Both the position numbers and the translations under genes were made by a program. From the NCBI GenBank assembly GCA_025201705.1, contig MU616564.1, forward strand, positions 7,185 through 71,184: a DNA stretch of 64,000 nucleotides, read 5' to 3'. A model generated the notes under the pieces. The model was not told where the DNA came from. It made no database searches and worked only from the letters and a program-made list of their open reading frames with translations. This stretch comes from Dissophora ornata (taxonomy: Eukaryota; Mortierellomycota; Mortierellomycetes; Mortierellales; Mortierellaceae). Every line of letters begins with the position of its first letter. The first letter of the stretch is position 1. Below are positions 23,011 through 31,709 of this stretch, piece by piece.

Positions 23011-26000
23011 ATGAGTCTTTGGACCAAGCTTATAGGTGCGCTGACAGTGTTCCTGGTGGTATCCAATGCCGTCGTCTCGGCAGGCGTCGATGTCATGAAC
23101 CTCCCGCCCAGTCATATCGACCTTTGGTAAATTACACGCGTCCACGTCGTTCTGTCATCTTCATCCAACGGATTTATCATTTTCAATTGCGCCGACACAG
23201 AGGAGCTGGAATATTGCGCACGCGACATCTCTACCTTCTCATATCCCCGTCCACTCCCTTCTTTTGCTTTCCGATTCCTGGGGGGAAATCGTAATAGTCC
23301 GAATGCATACCTGCTCGAATTCAGCAGTGAACCCGGTGGATTCTTGGCTGCTCAGGAAGCAAGGGCCATCAAGGCCAAGATCCGTGGGATGAAGAGCGTC
23401 CGGATCCGACAAGAGTTCGGAGTGTTGTTGAATGCGATATCTGTCCAAGTCGAGGATCAGGACGAACTGAGGGAGATAATGACACTACACGAGGTTGTGA
23501 GGGTGTCACCCTTAGTAAGACTCTATTTTTTTCCAATTCACGGATCTTGATTTGAGTTGGTAGGTTACTTATGGTACCTCTTCGTTTTCCTATAGACAGT
23601 CGTGTCGCCGCCGGATCGGGTCCAACCGACACAAAATGCCCTGGTCACGAGCGCGTAAGTGGATCAATGAATGGTAAACGAAAAGGTCTATTAAACCGAT
23701 GTTAACATTCGTTGTTGCCCCTCACGCACATCTCAGGCTCAACATGACAGGCGTGACGAGAGTGCACTCGGAGCTGAAGTTGAAGGGCAAAGGCATCAAA
23801 GTCGGAGTCATTGGTAAAAAGAAGTGCGAGATGCTGACTGGAGAACATGCGCATTTTTGCATGTTGTACACACCACTAATATCCCACTTGCCCATACTCT
23901 CTCTTTATGTCTTACTCACTGTTTATATCGTCCTTTGAAGATACCGGTATCGATTTCACTGTAAGCACATAGGATCTCCCTGAATTTACTAGACCTTATG
24001 TTACCGCATCTCTAGTTTACGAGTATAACTTTTCTAACAGTACCACCTTGGCCTTAATACGGATTAGCATCCAGCACTGGGAGGTTGCTTCGGTGCGAAT
24101 TGTAGAGTAGCGTATGGTTACGACTTTGTTGGAGATGACTACAATGGCAAGAACACACCCAAACCTTCGGAGATTCCGATGGACTGTGCCGGGCATGGTT
24201 CCCATGTCGCGGGTATCATCGGTGCTTCAAGTGATATTATTGTGGGCGTTGCCCCAGAAGGTATGTGTTTCGATATGCCACAGAGCGCGTTTTTTCAAAA
24301 AAAAAAATATATATATATATATATATGCGAAGCATGCCACTTCCAGCACTAACTACCACACTCAAACTGCCCTCGTAGTGACTTTAGGGGCATATAGAGT
24401 TCTGGGTTGCGAGGGCAGTACAAATGACGACTTGATCCTCGCGGCGCTCGAACGCGCCGTTTCCGAAAAGATGGATGTCATCAATCTCTCCATCGGAGAG
24501 TCCAATGGCTGGCCCTACAATCCCTTGTCTCGGGCAGTCAGCAAAGCCAAGGCGATGGGAGTAATTATCACTGTTTCTCAAGGCAATGATGATAAGCTGG
24601 GGCTGTTCAGCGCCAATTACGTGGGGGAAGGTCCTTCCGTGATGGCGGTGGCCTCTATAATCAATACGAGACTTTTGTTGCCGTACTTTACCACGTCCTT
24701 GGAGCCTGACTATCGATACCGTATGTCCTCCCCCCTTTTTTTATTTATTTTTATTTTTGGCTATTCATCATGGTTGTTGCTGAAAACTCGCTTGAGTAAC
24801 TTGTAGTGCTCATTAGGTCGAACATTCCAGGACTCAATTCAACGTTGCCTCTGGTGGCGGCTCTGAACGGTACCCAGTTTGGACTAGGATGCGAGTCTTT
24901 CCAAGTCGACCTGACAGGAAAAGTCGTTGTTGTCATGCGTGGCTCCTGCAACTTTTCAGTCAAGGTGAATTTTTTTAAAAAATTTACTTGCACAGTCTGC
25001 ACAGTCTGCACAGTCTCGACAAGATTACTAACACGCTTGTAACAAACGAACAATGCAACGGTGCAAAAATAGGCTCAGCACGCACTTGACAAAGGTGCAG
25101 TCGGAATCCTGTTCGCCAACAACGTCCCTGACGTGTTTTCAGCCTCTATAGGGCCTCTGATATTCCCTTACGCGGGGATTTCTCAGGCTGACGGCCAAAG
25201 ACTGTTCGATTCTCTGAAAGCCAACACCAAAACACAGGACGGAAGAATGAGCACAGAAGTCATGTCCTTCTTCAACGTCACTCCCATACCGTTCGTTAAC
25301 GAGGCCGGGGGATCAACGTCGCAGTTCAGTTCTTACGGACTCGATAATGAACTCCATATCAAGCCTGATATCGGCGCCCCTGGAGAGAATATTTATTCGA
25401 CATGGCCCGTTAGGAATGGAAGTTACGCCACACTGTCAGGGACTTCAATGGCTAGTCCTCATGTAGCAGGAGCTTTAGCCCTCGCTTTACAGCACTTCCG
25501 AGGCATTACTGGGCGCTCGACCCCCCCGACATGGCCCCAGGTTCAGCGGATCTACGAGACGTTTAAGAACACAGCCGAACCTTCACATGTATTCAAGAAT
25601 CACACCCCTTTCGACTTGTTCGCAGATACCGCTGAGCTCACGCAAGGGGGTAAAGAGTCGGGCCCAGTAAAACCTGCAGCGATGAGTGGCTCTGAAGCGA
25701 TTACTTCTGTTGCGAAGCAGGGATCCGGAATGATTAATATTTATCGTGCGCTGACAAGTCTTGGATATGGCCTCAGATCCACAAAAGCTGAAGGAGCCTT
25801 GGGAGCTGGGGAAGGCAATGATGGAGCTTTTCCTCCAATTCGCTCAACATTTGTCTCCCCAGCATCCCTGGAGTTGAACGATACCGAGTTTGCGTCCGGT
25901 CAGCATCAGATGTTGACAATCCACAACTATGGCTCAGAGACCGTTCAGTACGAGCTATCTCATTTGCCTGCAGAGTCCTTGCACGAACTCTCGATCGAAA

Positions 26001-27199
26001 CCAAACAAGTGAAGCTCAAAAGCAGCAACAATTATACTGCACCGTCCCCTGATGAGAAAAAGTATAATGTTCAATTCGTGGATGCCGAGGCCAAAGTCGT
26101 CTTCTCGTCGAGTTTTCTAACGGTTCCGGCGGGAGGACAGCGTCGTGTGTCCCTTAGGATATTGCCGCCACAAGGTATACCTGCCGATCAGCACTGGATC
26201 TACTCTGGATACATCGCCGTCCGCGCAGTGTCTGCTTCAATGTCAACTGCACAGGAGAGGGTCTCCACCTCGGAACTGATCCACGTGCCCTATGCAGGTG
26301 TCAGAGGGGCAATGAAGACCCTACCCATCTTCCTGCGGCCGACAGCTACAGAACTCCAGGCCAATAACCGAACATCGCTGTGTCAGGTCCTCGGGAGTGG
26401 AATTGCAAATGCGACCGATTTTGTCTACTCATTCGAGGGCGAGAATCTTCCGATCCTTTCCTTTTGTGTTATGAATCCAACGCGCTTCTTACTCTTGGAT
26501 CTCATCAGTGCAGGAAAGAGAGACGACCTAGACATTAACCGATCTCTGGCGGGCAAAAGCGAAGAGGCGCAGAGCCTAGAGGCAGATTATGAAGTTTATG
26601 GAAGGATAGCCTCCAACGACTTTGTTCCTCGGTCTGAGATTACATCGATTGTGTCTGCGATCCAATGGGATGGTACTTTGGACTTGAAGGAAGGGCACGA
26701 TAGTAATAACACGTATCCGGTCAAAGACCGCGAAATGGTCCATCATGAGCCAGGCAGGGATCTCATTTACGGGATGCGTGCCAAGACTGCCAACGACAGA
26801 CAAAATGAAGTCTCGGACACGGGAAACCGTTTAACGCAGCTAATTCAACGTGACGACACGGAGGCTGGCAGCTTAACAAATGAGAGCAGAAATGATGGAA
26901 GGGGTAAACATAGAAGCAGAAAAGATCTCAAAGGCAAGAGTGCTGAGGATCGCTCTACGGTGCCAGAGGGCAAGAATTCACGGAACCTGCATCTGCTTAA
27001 ACTTGCACATGGCCAAAATCGCACCAACATCCCGGTTCCAGATGGGCGGTATCGATTGCGCCTGCGGGCACTGCGAATCTTGGGTGACATTGATAATTCA
27101 GACGATTATGACGTGTGGATAACGCGGAATTTCGCGATCCAGCGTACGGGGGCGAAAGTTCCAGCTTTTGTGATGGTGGACCCAGCTACTCCCAAGTGA
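23011..27199 (+). CDS. secreted subtilisin-like serine protease (S8) with PA insert and C-terminal beta domain
   Basis: Nine exons: 23011-23126, 23298-23514, 23596-23654, 23737-23813, 23941-23960, 24068-24260, 24379-24720, 24807-24964, 25073-27199; 1102 aa. An in-frame ATG at 22993 is an alternative start. Residues 1-24 are a signal peptide ([18 protein letters not shown]). A prodomain follows ([18 protein letters not shown]). The catalytic triad is Asp157 (VGVIDTGIDF), His206 ([11 protein letters not shown]) and Ser519 ([15 protein letters not shown]). A PA-like insert lies before the Ser ([27 protein letters not shown]), as in Vpr-type subtilases. The long C-terminal part looks like the Fn3-like region of these enzymes and ends with a Lys/Arg-rich segment. 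It probably degrades extracellular protein. The catalytic Asp codon is split between exons 4 and 5; the exon 1/2 junction is the weakest. AATAAA at 27263. Confidence 0.92.
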
Positions 27200-27496: not shown

Positions 27497-29788
27497 ATGA
27501 CATTGACAAGGAGCAGACGTGCCACTGCAACCACCGACCCGGCGCCACCAATACCCTCAACCACAGCCGAGCAGTCAAAAGAAACACGGCGAAGTAGAAC
27601 GCGTGTCACCAACACCATCACGGAAAAGAACAAGTGTGATGAACTAAGAGAGGACGTTGATAAGTCCATCAGCATTTCGCCTCGAACTACTAGAATCACA
27701 TCCTCCTCAACATCCGCCTTTGCATCCGGGAACGATGCACCGTTGACAGCGCGAGGTACTCGCAGCACTCGGCGCACCTTAGTGACGAATAGTGGTGGAG
27801 CAGCAGGCGTCCCAGAGACAAGCGCGCGAGATTCGGCTGAGGAAGATGAGGTAGAGACACCCCGTCGGGCACGCGCCGAGTCTGTGATTTCTCTCGGTCA
27901 TTATCGGAAACAAACTCCCTTAATCCCTTGGAAGGCGCTGAGCAGCGACGATATTGAAGGAAGCAAGACCTCAAAGGCCTTATCGGGCTATCGCATTAAC
28001 TTGGAAACAAGAGCAGGGATCTCGTACGCAGAGCGACTCTTAAAAGCGCTAGAACCAATCGAGGATGACGAAGACTACAGCCTTGTCCAATTCTCTAGTC
28101 TCTCAATCACTTCATCTCCACCGCCTACATTGCTCGACATGGGAGAGGAGTATGATGACCTGGAAGCAACAGCGGCAGGTCCTTGGCTGATGGTCTTTGA
28201 CTCTGGACGCTCGAGTTCCCCCTCTTTCCCGTCCTCGCCGTCCCGTCCTCACCGCCAGCTTTCTTACACGACATTCGATGATTTGGAAACTGCCCAGGAT
28301 AGCGACCTCGACCACCGTCGCCATTCTTTCCTTCCAAACACTTCCAGCATGTCAGATTCACTTGACCAGACTGACACATTTTTTGCAGGCGTGTTGGACG
28401 AGGATGTGGGTCAGGACAAGCAAGAAGACGATGATCCCTTTGGATTCACAAGAGTTGAGCGACAGCTTTTGAGGACCAGGAGTCTGCGGCCAAAACTCAT
28501 GGCGATCAATGAGACGAATAATCGCACTGTTGCAGCCGTCGCAACTCAACGCAACAGCAGCAACGGCAGCGACCCCACTCTGGACTCTGAAAATTCCACC
28601 AATTCCAAAGAGAGGCTTGATCAGAGTGTTCTGGAGAAAGCTGCAGTCAGGAGAAGAGGCGACAGCAGGAACAAGGGCAAAGCTGTTGATCGAGGTGACA
28701 AGGGTGCTACAAATGGCTCTGAAGTCAACGGTAGGAGCCGAGGGGATACCAGCCCCTCTCAGATGGATGAGGACATACAAAGAGCCATCCAACTAAGCAT
28801 ACGCGATGTGGATTTGGAAAGCGGTGAAGGGAGCTCGTCGTTTGCCTCTTCAAGACCAGCAACGACCTTGTTATCATCAAGGTCCGACTTACTGCAAGGC
28901 GAAATTACTAGCGACGAAACAACGCCTTCGAAGAGCATCTTATCAACGACGGCAACACAGGACGTTGTGGCTACGATATCTGCAACCACGAGATCGAAAA
29001 GACGTATATCGCGATTTTATGGAAAGGCATCTGCGGTTTCTGTCGATACTCAAGATACCCCATCCGCGAGCGATGTCACTTCGGTAACAGAGACGGATAA
29101 CCTAATTCCAGTTCAGGTCCTTGACAGTGATGAAGGTCTGGAATTGGACAACCTCAATCAGATGCCGACGACACCACAGAAGAAACCAAGCTCCCCCGGC
29201 TTTGACCTTTCGTTCAATTCGGACGACTACCCAATTACCTTTGAGACAACTCCCAAGAAGAAGCCTGAGGCTGGGATGCCTCTATCATTGGAATCAACAT
29301 CATCGCAAACAACCAAAGGACGACGATCGCAAAAGAAACAGTATATACTGACGGAGCAATTGCAGGCAATGCTACCGCGCCGTCGCCGCAACCACAGAAA
29401 CATGAACGTCGAGCAAGTTGTGAGCATTAACAGCGGAGGCGAGGACAATGCCTCGTTTTCAAAAGACAGCAGCGAGGCCGAGGAAGAAGAGTTTCTGGTG
29501 CGACGCCGTGGAGGTCGTGTAGTCTCTAGGCCTGCGACAACGAAATTGCCAACAACAACAGGAAGTAAGAAACGAAGCGCACCTGCAGAGACACCAGCGC
29601 CAGCACCGGCCCGAAAACGCAACCAGCCGTCCAGACCCGTTTCAAGTTTGTCAAAGCGCAAGGAGAGGCAAAGTGAGAAGATGGAGGATCGAAGCGAATG
29701 GACTGCATCACAATTGGCGGCTCAGGAGGAACGGATCAAATACTTTCAGCAGGTGGACGATTTTGAGCTGGAGGTCGAAGGCGTGTAG
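27497..29788 (+). CDS. disordered nuclear-type protein with FGF motif, UIM and sororin-like C-terminus
   Basis: 763 aa from the ATG at 27497; an in-frame ATG at 27434 would add 21 aa. Single exon, mostly disordered, rich in Ser, Thr, Arg and acidic residues. Three features stand out: an FGF motif in acidic context at residues 315-317 (DDDPFGFTRVE); a ubiquitin-interacting-motif-like helix at about 423-440 (MDEDIQRAIQLSIRD); and a basic motif LTEQLQAMLPRRRR near 615-632. The last 30 residues (EW...YFQQVDDFELEVE) match the pattern F-x3-[DE]-x-F-[DE]-L-x-V-E of the end of animal sororin, a cohesin protector whose FGF motif binds Pds5. Sororin homology is my inference; without it this is an unknown protein. 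Confidence 0.6.
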   Translation: MTLTRSRRATATTDPAPPIPSTTAEQSKETRRSRTRVTNTITEKNKCDELREDVDKSISISPRTTRITSSSTSAFASGNDAPLTARGTRSTRRTLVTNSGGAAGVPETSARDSAEEDEVETPRRARAESVISLGHYRKQTPLIPWKALSSDDIEGSKTSKALSGYRINLETRAGISYAERLLKALEPIEDDEDYSLVQFSSLSITSSPPPTLLDMGEEYDDLEATAAGPWLMVFDSGRSSSPSFPSSPSRPHRQLSYTTFDDLETAQDSDLDHRRHSFLPNTSSMSDSLDQTDTFFAGVLDEDVGQDKQEDDDPFGFTRVERQLLRTRSLRPKLMAINETNNRTVAAVATQRNSSNGSDPTLDSENSTNSKERLDQSVLEKAAVRRRGDSRNKGKAVDRGDKGATNGSEVNGRSRGDTSPSQMDEDIQRAIQLSIRDVDLESGEGSSSFASSRPATTLLSSRSDLLQGEITSDETTPSKSILSTTATQDVVATISATTRSKRRISRFYGKASAVSVDTQDTPSASDVTSVTETDNLIPVQVLDSDEGLELDNLNQMPTTPQKKPSSPGFDLSFNSDDYPITFETTPKKKPEAGMPLSLESTSSQTTKGRRSQKKQYILTEQLQAMLPRRRRNHRNMNVEQVVSINSGGEDNASFSKDSSEAEEEEFLVRRRGGRVVSRPATTKLPTTTGSKKRSAPAETPAPAPARKRNQPSRPVSSLSKRKERQSEKMEDRSEWTASQLAAQEERIKYFQQVDDFELEVEGV

Positions 29789-30010: not shown

Positions 30011-31709
30011 CTACCAGGACGCAAGTTTGGCCTTGTTAAACATGTCCGCCCAAGCGTTCGTTGTCTCGCAATCTGATTTGTTATAGGTATCCATGGCCTC
30101 GGGCATCCACTGCTCCAGTTTATGAATGCGGTCCTTGCTTGCAGGGTGGGTGTTCAAGAAGGCAAGCGAGAGTCCCTTTTCCTGCGAGGCCATACGGGCC
30201 CACATCTGGATACTCTCCCGCGGATCGAAACATGCCTGAGCAACGAGGAGGAGTCCGATCTGATCAGCCTCTGTCTCACACTTTCGACTGAATGGGAGCT
30301 ATAATAAATACATTTAAAATAGCGGTACAAGAATATTAAACGATGATCTCGAGCAGACGAGGCAATGAAATAGCGGTGATATATATTATATACCATCATG
30401 CCAAGTTCCATCATGATACGCTGCATGGACCAGGAGGGATCAAAGACGACCGCGACAATGACACCGATAAACATTGCGATTTTGGCGAAACTCAGTTTCT
30501 CGGCGGAATGACGCGCTAATTGATGCGCAATCTCATGTCCCAAGACCGTTGCTAGTCCATCTTCATTCCCTGCTATTGGTAGAATTCTATTGAACACCAA
30601 AAAAAGGAGGGGAAGCGTAAACAGGGGGGTAAGAAATCTTTGCTGGACTCAAATGACGGCAATCCCGCAGTATATGTACCCTGTGAAGACAAAGACCTTG
30701 CCTCCAGGCAACACGAATGCGTTTTTTTCATCGCTCTGGATAACATGAAACTCCCAATCAAGGTCTAAGCGACAGGGGGGCGGCAACATGATGGTACATT
30801 AGTAAAAATATTTCTTCACATAAGATCGTCGCAGAACGTGAGTCCTGTTCTTCGCCCGGTTTTGTCTACTTACTCTCCATCCCAGCAGCTTTGATAATTC
30901 TCCAGGCGATCCGTTCCACGTACTTGGTGTATGGGTGATTCGATGGCAGCATCTTGTGTCCAAACTTTTATGCAAAAAAAAATAAAAATAAAAAGAACTG
31001 TTACCAAACAGACCATTACCCTTCCCGTAATCTCGACATTTACAAAGAAACCCCTTGGACAGAATTGTACCTCAGACATGACTTGCTTATAGGCTTCTTT
31101 CGCCATCATCTCCTCCTGTTGAGGCGTCACATCCATGAACCGACGCCGACCTGTCATCGGCACACTATTTCAAGACCGCGATCCAGTAAAGAAGATGTGG
31201 AAACATTCATCAGCAAGCGCGGCAGTTCGGTTCTTTGTGATTTCCACAGAATAAAGACATGGCCAGAGCAACTCTGAAACTTACGTCTCCAAATGTGTCA
31301 CGTAATAACCCCCAGCTCCGACCGCAACCACCCCTCCAACAATCTGGAACCGTCTGTCAAATAAAATCGGCACTCCTCGTCCGCCGCCACGACCGCCGGG
31401 ACCAGGATTCTGCCCAAACCGCTTGTACTGTGGTCGAAGGATGATCTTGTTCAACATGTTCGTGTCGGAAGAGGAGGGGGGTCGTGGTTGTGGGATCATG
31501 TCACCCCAAGACGACGGCGGTCCGTTGCGGAAACTTGGTGGCGAGGAATGAATTCCGCGAGTGAGGAATGAGACAGGCGACACCTGTGAAGCCGTGGCTG
31601 CAGACAGCGGTGATGACCTTGCAGTTGAAAGCAAAGTGGCACGGTATGGCTGGATTCCATGACGGGTGATCCGCGCTAGGACTGAGCTTGCATTTGCCGC
31701 TCTGCACAT
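30011..31709 (-). CDS. OMA1: mitochondrial inner-membrane metallopeptidase OMA1 (M48 family)
   Basis: Stress-activated zinc peptidase of the inner mitochondrial membrane, known for cleaving OPA1/Mgm1-type and misfolded membrane proteins. Six exons: 31709-31285, 31164-31071, 30964-30874, 30764-30680, 30586-30394, 30298-30011; 391 aa. The start is the ATG at 31709; the frame extends a little upstream only through a TTG. The Arg/Ser-rich N-terminus is a presequence, followed by a short TM segment (IVGGVVAVGAGGYYVT). Then LPSNHPYTKYVERIAWRII, VLPGGKVFVFTGILP, the zinc site HEIAH at residues 249-253, a hydrophobic stretch, and the third ligand Glu in CETEADQIGL. The protein ends with the region around WADMFNKAK. 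All junctions fit OMA1 conservation. Confidence 0.93.

Follow-up and report, generated by a model that had tools for sequence, protein, structure and literature searches.

A very probable sororin in fungi of the Mortierellaceae, with a Sororin-box-like C-terminal tail and a conserved FGF block

The window, that is, the whole stretch of DNA analysed, covers 64,000 nucleotides of contig MU616564.1 of Dissophora ornata (assembly GCA_025201705.1). The species belongs to the Mortierella-type fungi, which are soil fungi. An uninterrupted reading frame runs from the ATG at 27497 to the TAG at 29786-29788 and very probably codes for sororin, a largely unstructured protein that holds the copies of duplicated chromosomes together until the cell divides. 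The genome-wide search of the 31.4 Mb genome matched this gene at its own locus only. The neighbouring genes, a subtilase and an M48 peptidase, give no pointer to cohesion. The features of the locus and of the product, called P0001 here, are as follows.

25073-27199, plus strand: subtilase gene with an Fn3-like domain, neighbour on the same strand
27497..29788, plus strand: open reading frame of the putative sororin P0001, 763 aa, intron not required
28427..28513, plus strand: FGF block DDDPFGFTRVERQLLRTRSLRPKLMAINE (residues 311-339) with FGF at 315-317, second most conserved 15-mer
28763..28807, plus strand: UIM-like helix MDEDIQRAIQLSIRD (residues 423-437), PF02809 match below cut-off
29000..29026, plus strand: RRISRFYGK (residues 502-510), candidate Pds5 APDAP-binding motif of YSR / YG[KR] type
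29249..29281, plus strand: TPKKKPEAGMP (residues 585-595), conserved block with a CDK-type TPxK site inside
29351..29386, plus strand: TEQLQAMLPRRR (residues 619-630), conserved block, fourth most conserved 15-mer
29609..29668, plus strand: candidate K/R-rich stretch ARKRNQPSRPVSSLSKRKER (residues 705-724) ahead of the box
29699..29779, plus strand: Sororin-box-like tail WTASQLAAQEERIKYFQQVDDFELEVE (residues 735-761), most conserved 15-mer, Sororin_C match
30154-30645, minus strand: M48 peptidase gene, neighbour on the opposite strand

At full length the only Pfam match of P0001 is a weak one to PF02809 (UIM); the same scan found no WAPL domain, and a pattern scan found no KEN box. No sororin was matched in the PDB by whole P0001, its tail, the tail profile or the human tail, and a match of the tail profile to RPA1 there (E 0.48) was read as chance.

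Relatives were gathered in two steps. A search with residues 650-763 gave three of them, and a profile reaching from the FGF block to the C-terminus then gave at least 29 proteins including P0001 at E <= 10 among the best 7991 candidates. The relatives, at least 28 in number, share 26-40% identity with P0001 and are mostly named 'hypothetical protein' in the database. All 25 whose source is named fall within the Mortierellaceae according to the NCBI taxonomy (Mortierella, Benniella, Entomortierella, Haplosporangium, Gamsiella, Modicella, Dissophora, Linnemannia and Podila; one species was checked for the placement of Mortierella), and therefore there is no sequence-based tie to other fungi; among the matches listed, no sororin outside the family was reached. 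The C-terminal 344 residues as a query gave no relatives at E <= 10 among the best 7988 candidates, the full-length members of the family being mostly outside the searched length range. Four Podila members (P0026-P0029) are 567-571 aa long, about 195 residues shorter than P0001, and keep the FGF and the box, with neither the UIM pattern nor RRISxxYG[KR]. P0025 (Mortierella sp. GBA30) is annotated as a dynein light chain of the roadblock type and has PF03259, perhaps through an annotation fusion of two adjacent genes.

Conservation was scanned in 15-residue stretches of the 29-sequence alignment, blind to the motif positions noted previously. The two highest-scoring stretches were residues 747-761 in the Sororin box (0.88) and 312-326 in the FGF block (0.86), against a mean of 0.38, although the relatives had been gathered with the FGF-to-end profile, which may inflate the apparent conservation of that part. 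The first-pass annotation had staked its sororin reading on the conservation of these motifs in close orthologues, and across the 29 members they are indeed the two most conserved stretches. Next in rank, behind the box and the FGF block, come residues 583-597 (TTPKKKPEAGMP, 0.81) and 615-629 (TEQLQAMLPRR, 0.77), which hold the blocks TPxKKPEAGMP and TEQLxAMLPRRR. PEAGxP is present in all 29 members and [ST]PxKxPEAG in 23, and the strict pattern [TS]EQLx[AV]xLPxR in 17.

The tail of P0001 is SEWTASQLAAQEERIKYFQQVDDFELEVEGV. It had been suggested that its last residues follow the animal sororin pattern F-x3-[DE]-x-F-[DE]-L-x-V-E, and FQQVDDFELEVE fits this pattern, ending two residues before the C-terminus. 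The EW dipeptide noted before it holds up only in its second residue: the W is invariant (29/29), whereas an E directly before it is found only in P0001 among the 29 tails. Every member has W-x14-F-x2-[VIL]-D-x-F (V in 21, I in 6 and L in 2 at the variable position), and the box always lies 2-3 residues before the C-terminus. When the tail is laid on the animal box consensus, [W/F/Y]xxx-hydrophobic-NxxFxE[A/hydrophobic][E/D]x[F/Y]ELx-hydrophobic-E (PMC10656103), P0001 agrees at 8 of the 9 specified positions from F onward. The agreement is 9/9 in 3 members, 8/9 in 22, 7/9 in 2 and 6/9 in 2, and among 2,000,000 random 25-residue tails of the family composition none reached 8 or more positions, 64 reached 7 and 1608 reached 6. 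The portion before the F, with its W spacing and the N, is unlike the animal box.

Comparison with the sororin profile of Pfam gave a partial result. With the last 40 residues of P0001 as a query, PF25220 (Sororin_C) was the sole Pfam match (E 0.022). Residues 25-38 of the query align with positions 11 to 24 of the 24-position profile, in register up to its last position, but the score is 15.1 bits, short of the 27.4 bits set as the curated cut-off; a human sororin tail scored 44.4 bits. The last 60 residues scored 13.8 bits, and full-length P0001 gave no match at E <= 10, as was the case for P0002 and P0004, with P0003 at E 1.5. Of the 27 distinct tails in the family, 18 matched Sororin_C at E <= 10 (weakly, best 0.0067; 9 without a match), and none of the 27 shuffled tails did so. 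Comparable E-values on the tails were obtained with Sas-6-like (4/27, best 0.0083) and DUF1931 (1/27, 0.0069). A profile comparison of the family with the human tail had the correct register at P = 0.025 and a probability of 1.9%. Searching PF25220 genome-wide gave no match, and control genomes gave no match either. The stretch before the box contains 8 K/R in 20 residues in P0001 and 5-12 in 20 across the 29 members, and may correspond to the basic stretch that precedes the box in known sororins.

The FGF motif noted earlier at residues 315-317 is there, and DDPFGF is found in 29/29 members. Its acidic context applies to the N-terminal side, where EDDDP precedes it, while the residues after it range from mixed to basic; the flank does not fit the vertebrate consensus [S/T]-hydrophobic-FGFExL. 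An FGF is expected by chance 0.023 times per protein of this composition, and a single FGF is modest evidence when taken alone. The block may serve to contact the WEST trough of Pds5, the cleft of Wapl or both, the binding sites described in PMC10656103. According to the same paper, FGF and YSR are dispensable and the box is essential when vertebrate sororin is overexpressed, and for that reason conservation of FGF/YSR type is weaker evidence than conservation of the box. The vertebrate-style RRSYSRL is absent from P0001, but the variant RR[ITV]SxxYG[KR] is present in 21 of the 29 members, in all of these 159-201 residues C-terminal of the FGF.

Following the FGF, RPKLMAINE (residues 331-339, window 28487-28513) has the form LxxIxE in 25/29 members. 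LxxIxE is the docking type of PP2A-B56. A Dalmatian-like phosphatase dock was rejected as the main reading, the flank being basic and the N, which is free in that motif, invariant; both features argue that the segment does something else, perhaps extending the FGF element.

The consensus of a UIM is acid-hydrophobic-xx-A-xxx-S-xx-acid. The UIM-like helix described in the first-pass annotation is real as a pattern, with a PF02809 match at E = 0.012 (15.8 bits, cut-off 21) and a predicted helix at the same place. The pattern occurs in 23 of the 29 members, the 6 without it including all four Podila proteins, and the stretch is last (0.58) of the 11 non-overlapping conserved stretches listed. Among the full-length relatives PF02809 gave E 0.021 in P0002 and E 0.25 in P0003, both below cut-off, and no match in P0004.

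Most of the protein outside the motifs was expected to be disordered, and the AlphaFold2 models agree, with pLDDT below 50 in 602 of 763 residues with 29 sequences and in 635 with 4 sequences. The 29-sequence model has short helices at residues 177-182, 317-328 (directly after the FGF), 371-386, 421-435 (the UIM), 619-625 and 737-754 (the box). The box helix block has pLDDT up to 91, and after it DFELEVE is predicted as extended at lower confidence (block 72). In the 4-sequence model the box helix spans 737-762, and since the helix there continues to 762 the extended end is not firm. In sororins a short helix of about six turns is described, with the last 4-5 residues touching a beta sheet (PMC10656103).

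Candidate partners were found in the same genome. PDS5 is matched at a locus that has LRIYAPDAPYT (APDAP), STAG/Scc3 is matched as well, and Rad21/Rec8 N-domain (kleisin) matches lie on two contigs. The WAPL domain has two matches on one contig (C840), separate from P0001; the weaker has internal stops, as would be expected of a match that crosses introns. At the Wapl locus the sequence RQTYGRQRSVL agrees with TYxxxR[T/S]-hydrophobic-L, the consensus of the fungal Wapl motif docking on APDAP (PMC10656103). The Eco1 acetyltransferase model had no match in this genome and none in the control genomes. A weak match to an Eco1-type zinc finger at 1501-1590 of L009 (G000:C144:17997-18086), at 24.6 bits, below cut-off and with a TGA within the matched frame, was left out of the argument.

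It is very probable that the gene encodes sororin, as the first-pass annotation had suggested: the two most conserved stretches are the two motifs, the box has the spacing of S. pombe Sor1, and Sororin_C recognises 18/27 tails as against 0/27 shuffled ones. We consider it likely, with good confidence, that P0001 is the Mortierellaceae sororin, with the box acting on cohesin and the FGF and YG[KR] on Pds5, in competition with Wapl. We infer the binding steps and the function wholly from known sororins. The box, a helix with a short end, would dock on cohesin, most likely at the interface of Smc3 with the N-domain of Scc1. The FGF block and, in most members, RRISxxYG[KR] would engage Pds5 at its WEST trough and APDAP loop, and perhaps also Wapl, and engagement of Pds5 would compete with Wapl. 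As the outcome, post-replicative cohesin would stay bound and sister chromatids would be held together. Older work implicates STAG2 as a sororin contact (cited in PMC11148194), but in more recent modelling the Sororin box sits where Smc3 meets the N-domain of Scc1, and no contact with SA2, Pds5B or Wapl was found (PMC10656103). Scc3, the partner first proposed for the tail, may thus be the wrong one to begin with, because the modelling sets the box on Smc3:Scc1 and not on SA2.

A more elaborate version, for now a speculation with few chances, sees the Mortierellaceae sororin as a clamp that grips Pds5 with two hands and also reads ubiquitin. The FGF-YSR distance in vertebrates, at most 15 residues, is too short for the WEST trough and the APDAP loop to be occupied simultaneously (PMC10656103), whereas with the 159-201 residues found here both Pds5 sites could be held and Wapl shut out of both. 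The UIM, for its part, could recognise ubiquitin placed on chromatin that has just been replicated, which would give a signal of replication in addition to Smc3 acetylation; for human cells, PARP activity has been put forward as a signal of this sort (PMC12759081).

The alternative that survives best, though unlikely, is that P0001 is a different regulator of cohesin or Pds5 which is recruited to cohesin by a sororin-type box, uses its other motifs for another task and does not antagonise Wapl. Arabidopsis Haspin has the box YFRDIDAFE, and the plant protein illustrates that the box by itself does not define function (PMC11148194). The PEAGMP, TEQLxAMLPRR and UIM blocks also have no counterpart among the sororin features in the literature searched. 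Against this, P0001 has no other Pfam domain besides the weak UIM, and its box sits at the extreme C-terminus as in sororins, accompanied by the FGF and a putative basic stretch. A ubiquitin-binding chromatin adaptor unrelated to sororin, with the UIM as its working part and a convergent tail, would account for the UIM pattern in 23/29 members and the PF02809 E-value of 0.012, but we regard it as improbable: the UIM is missing in 6/29 and scores low in conservation while the box and the FGF are in 29/29, and PF02809 was below cut-off in all four full-length proteins scanned. Chance likeness of the tail of a disordered acidic protein could be argued from the short motif, the sub-threshold Pfam score and the weak profile comparison, but is scarcely credible and already disfavoured, given that none of the 2,000,000 random tails equalled it, no shuffled tail matched Sororin_C and both predicted motifs are conservation peaks.

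Sororin was long regarded as an animal protein and is now known from plants and Ascomycota. Since sororins have already been published for S. pombe, Sordaria and Aspergillus (PMC11148194, PMC12758814, PMC10656103), P0001 would be an already known kind of protein in another phylum. In the literature searched we found no published sororin from Mortierella-type fungi, Mucoromycota or Rhizopus, although the supplementary tree of PMC11148194 may include such fungi, and no report of a sororin with a ubiquitin-interacting motif. If sororin is conserved in Mortierellomycota, where all members found have the box and the FGF, this would favour the view that the Wapl antagonist arose early, before the Dikarya split, and the presence of the FGF in all these proteins would suggest that it was lost in Sordaria. 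The analysis also provides one probable name for 29 mostly 'hypothetical' sequences and an alignment usable for multi-chain modelling.

Among known sororins, S. pombe Sor1 (SPAC9E9.05) has F, V, D and an aromatic residue at box offsets 0, 3, 4 and 6, a likeness that holds in 29/29 members of the P0001 family, and shares a putative FGF, the absence of a KEN box and, as a candidate common feature, a basic stretch before the box (PMC11148194). The corresponding Sor1 mutants F299A, V302A, D303A and Y305A each fail to rescue in vivo, but the mutant proteins have reduced levels; D303A weakens cohesin binding (PMC11148194). In contrast to Sor1, which is called short and was tested at residues 299-305, P0001 is long (763 aa), has F instead of Y as the second aromatic residue, and carries the UIM pattern, the RRISxxYG[KR] motif and two extra conserved blocks (PMC11148194). 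Loss of sor1, as well as loss of AtSORORIN in somatic tissue, is reported to be suppressed by loss of WAPL.

With vertebrate sororin (CDCA5), P0001 has in common the FGF and a box that contains a W and two F and closes in acidic and hydrophobic residues, and as candidate shared features a Pds5-type tyrosine motif and a basic stretch (PMC10656103). The W-to-F spacing is 15 in the P0001 family and 8 in human (W233, F241), YG[KR] replaces YSR, and the tyrosine motif follows the FGF after 159-201 residues instead of about 10-15 (PMC10656103). The KEN box of vertebrates is not conserved, being found in 6/29 members at scattered positions. Vertebrates and Dalmatian have one, whereas the sororins of S. 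pombe, Arabidopsis and Sordaria are reported to lack it, and the KEN box is not a defining sororin feature outside animals. The sororin of Sordaria macrospora (SMAC4_08091) resembles P0001 in being long (701 aa) and largely unstructured, with a C-terminal box and no KEN box, but the FGF, found in 29/29 members here, is reported absent there (PMC12758814). The FGF is not universal in sororins, being present in vertebrates and S. pombe but reported absent from Sordaria and Arabidopsis. Finally, RRISxxYG[KR] of P0001 has the YG[K/R] core in common with the N-terminal motif of fungal Wapl, [M/hydrophobic]xxYG[K/R], the residue three before the Y being S in P0001 and M or hydrophobic in Wapl (PMC10656103).
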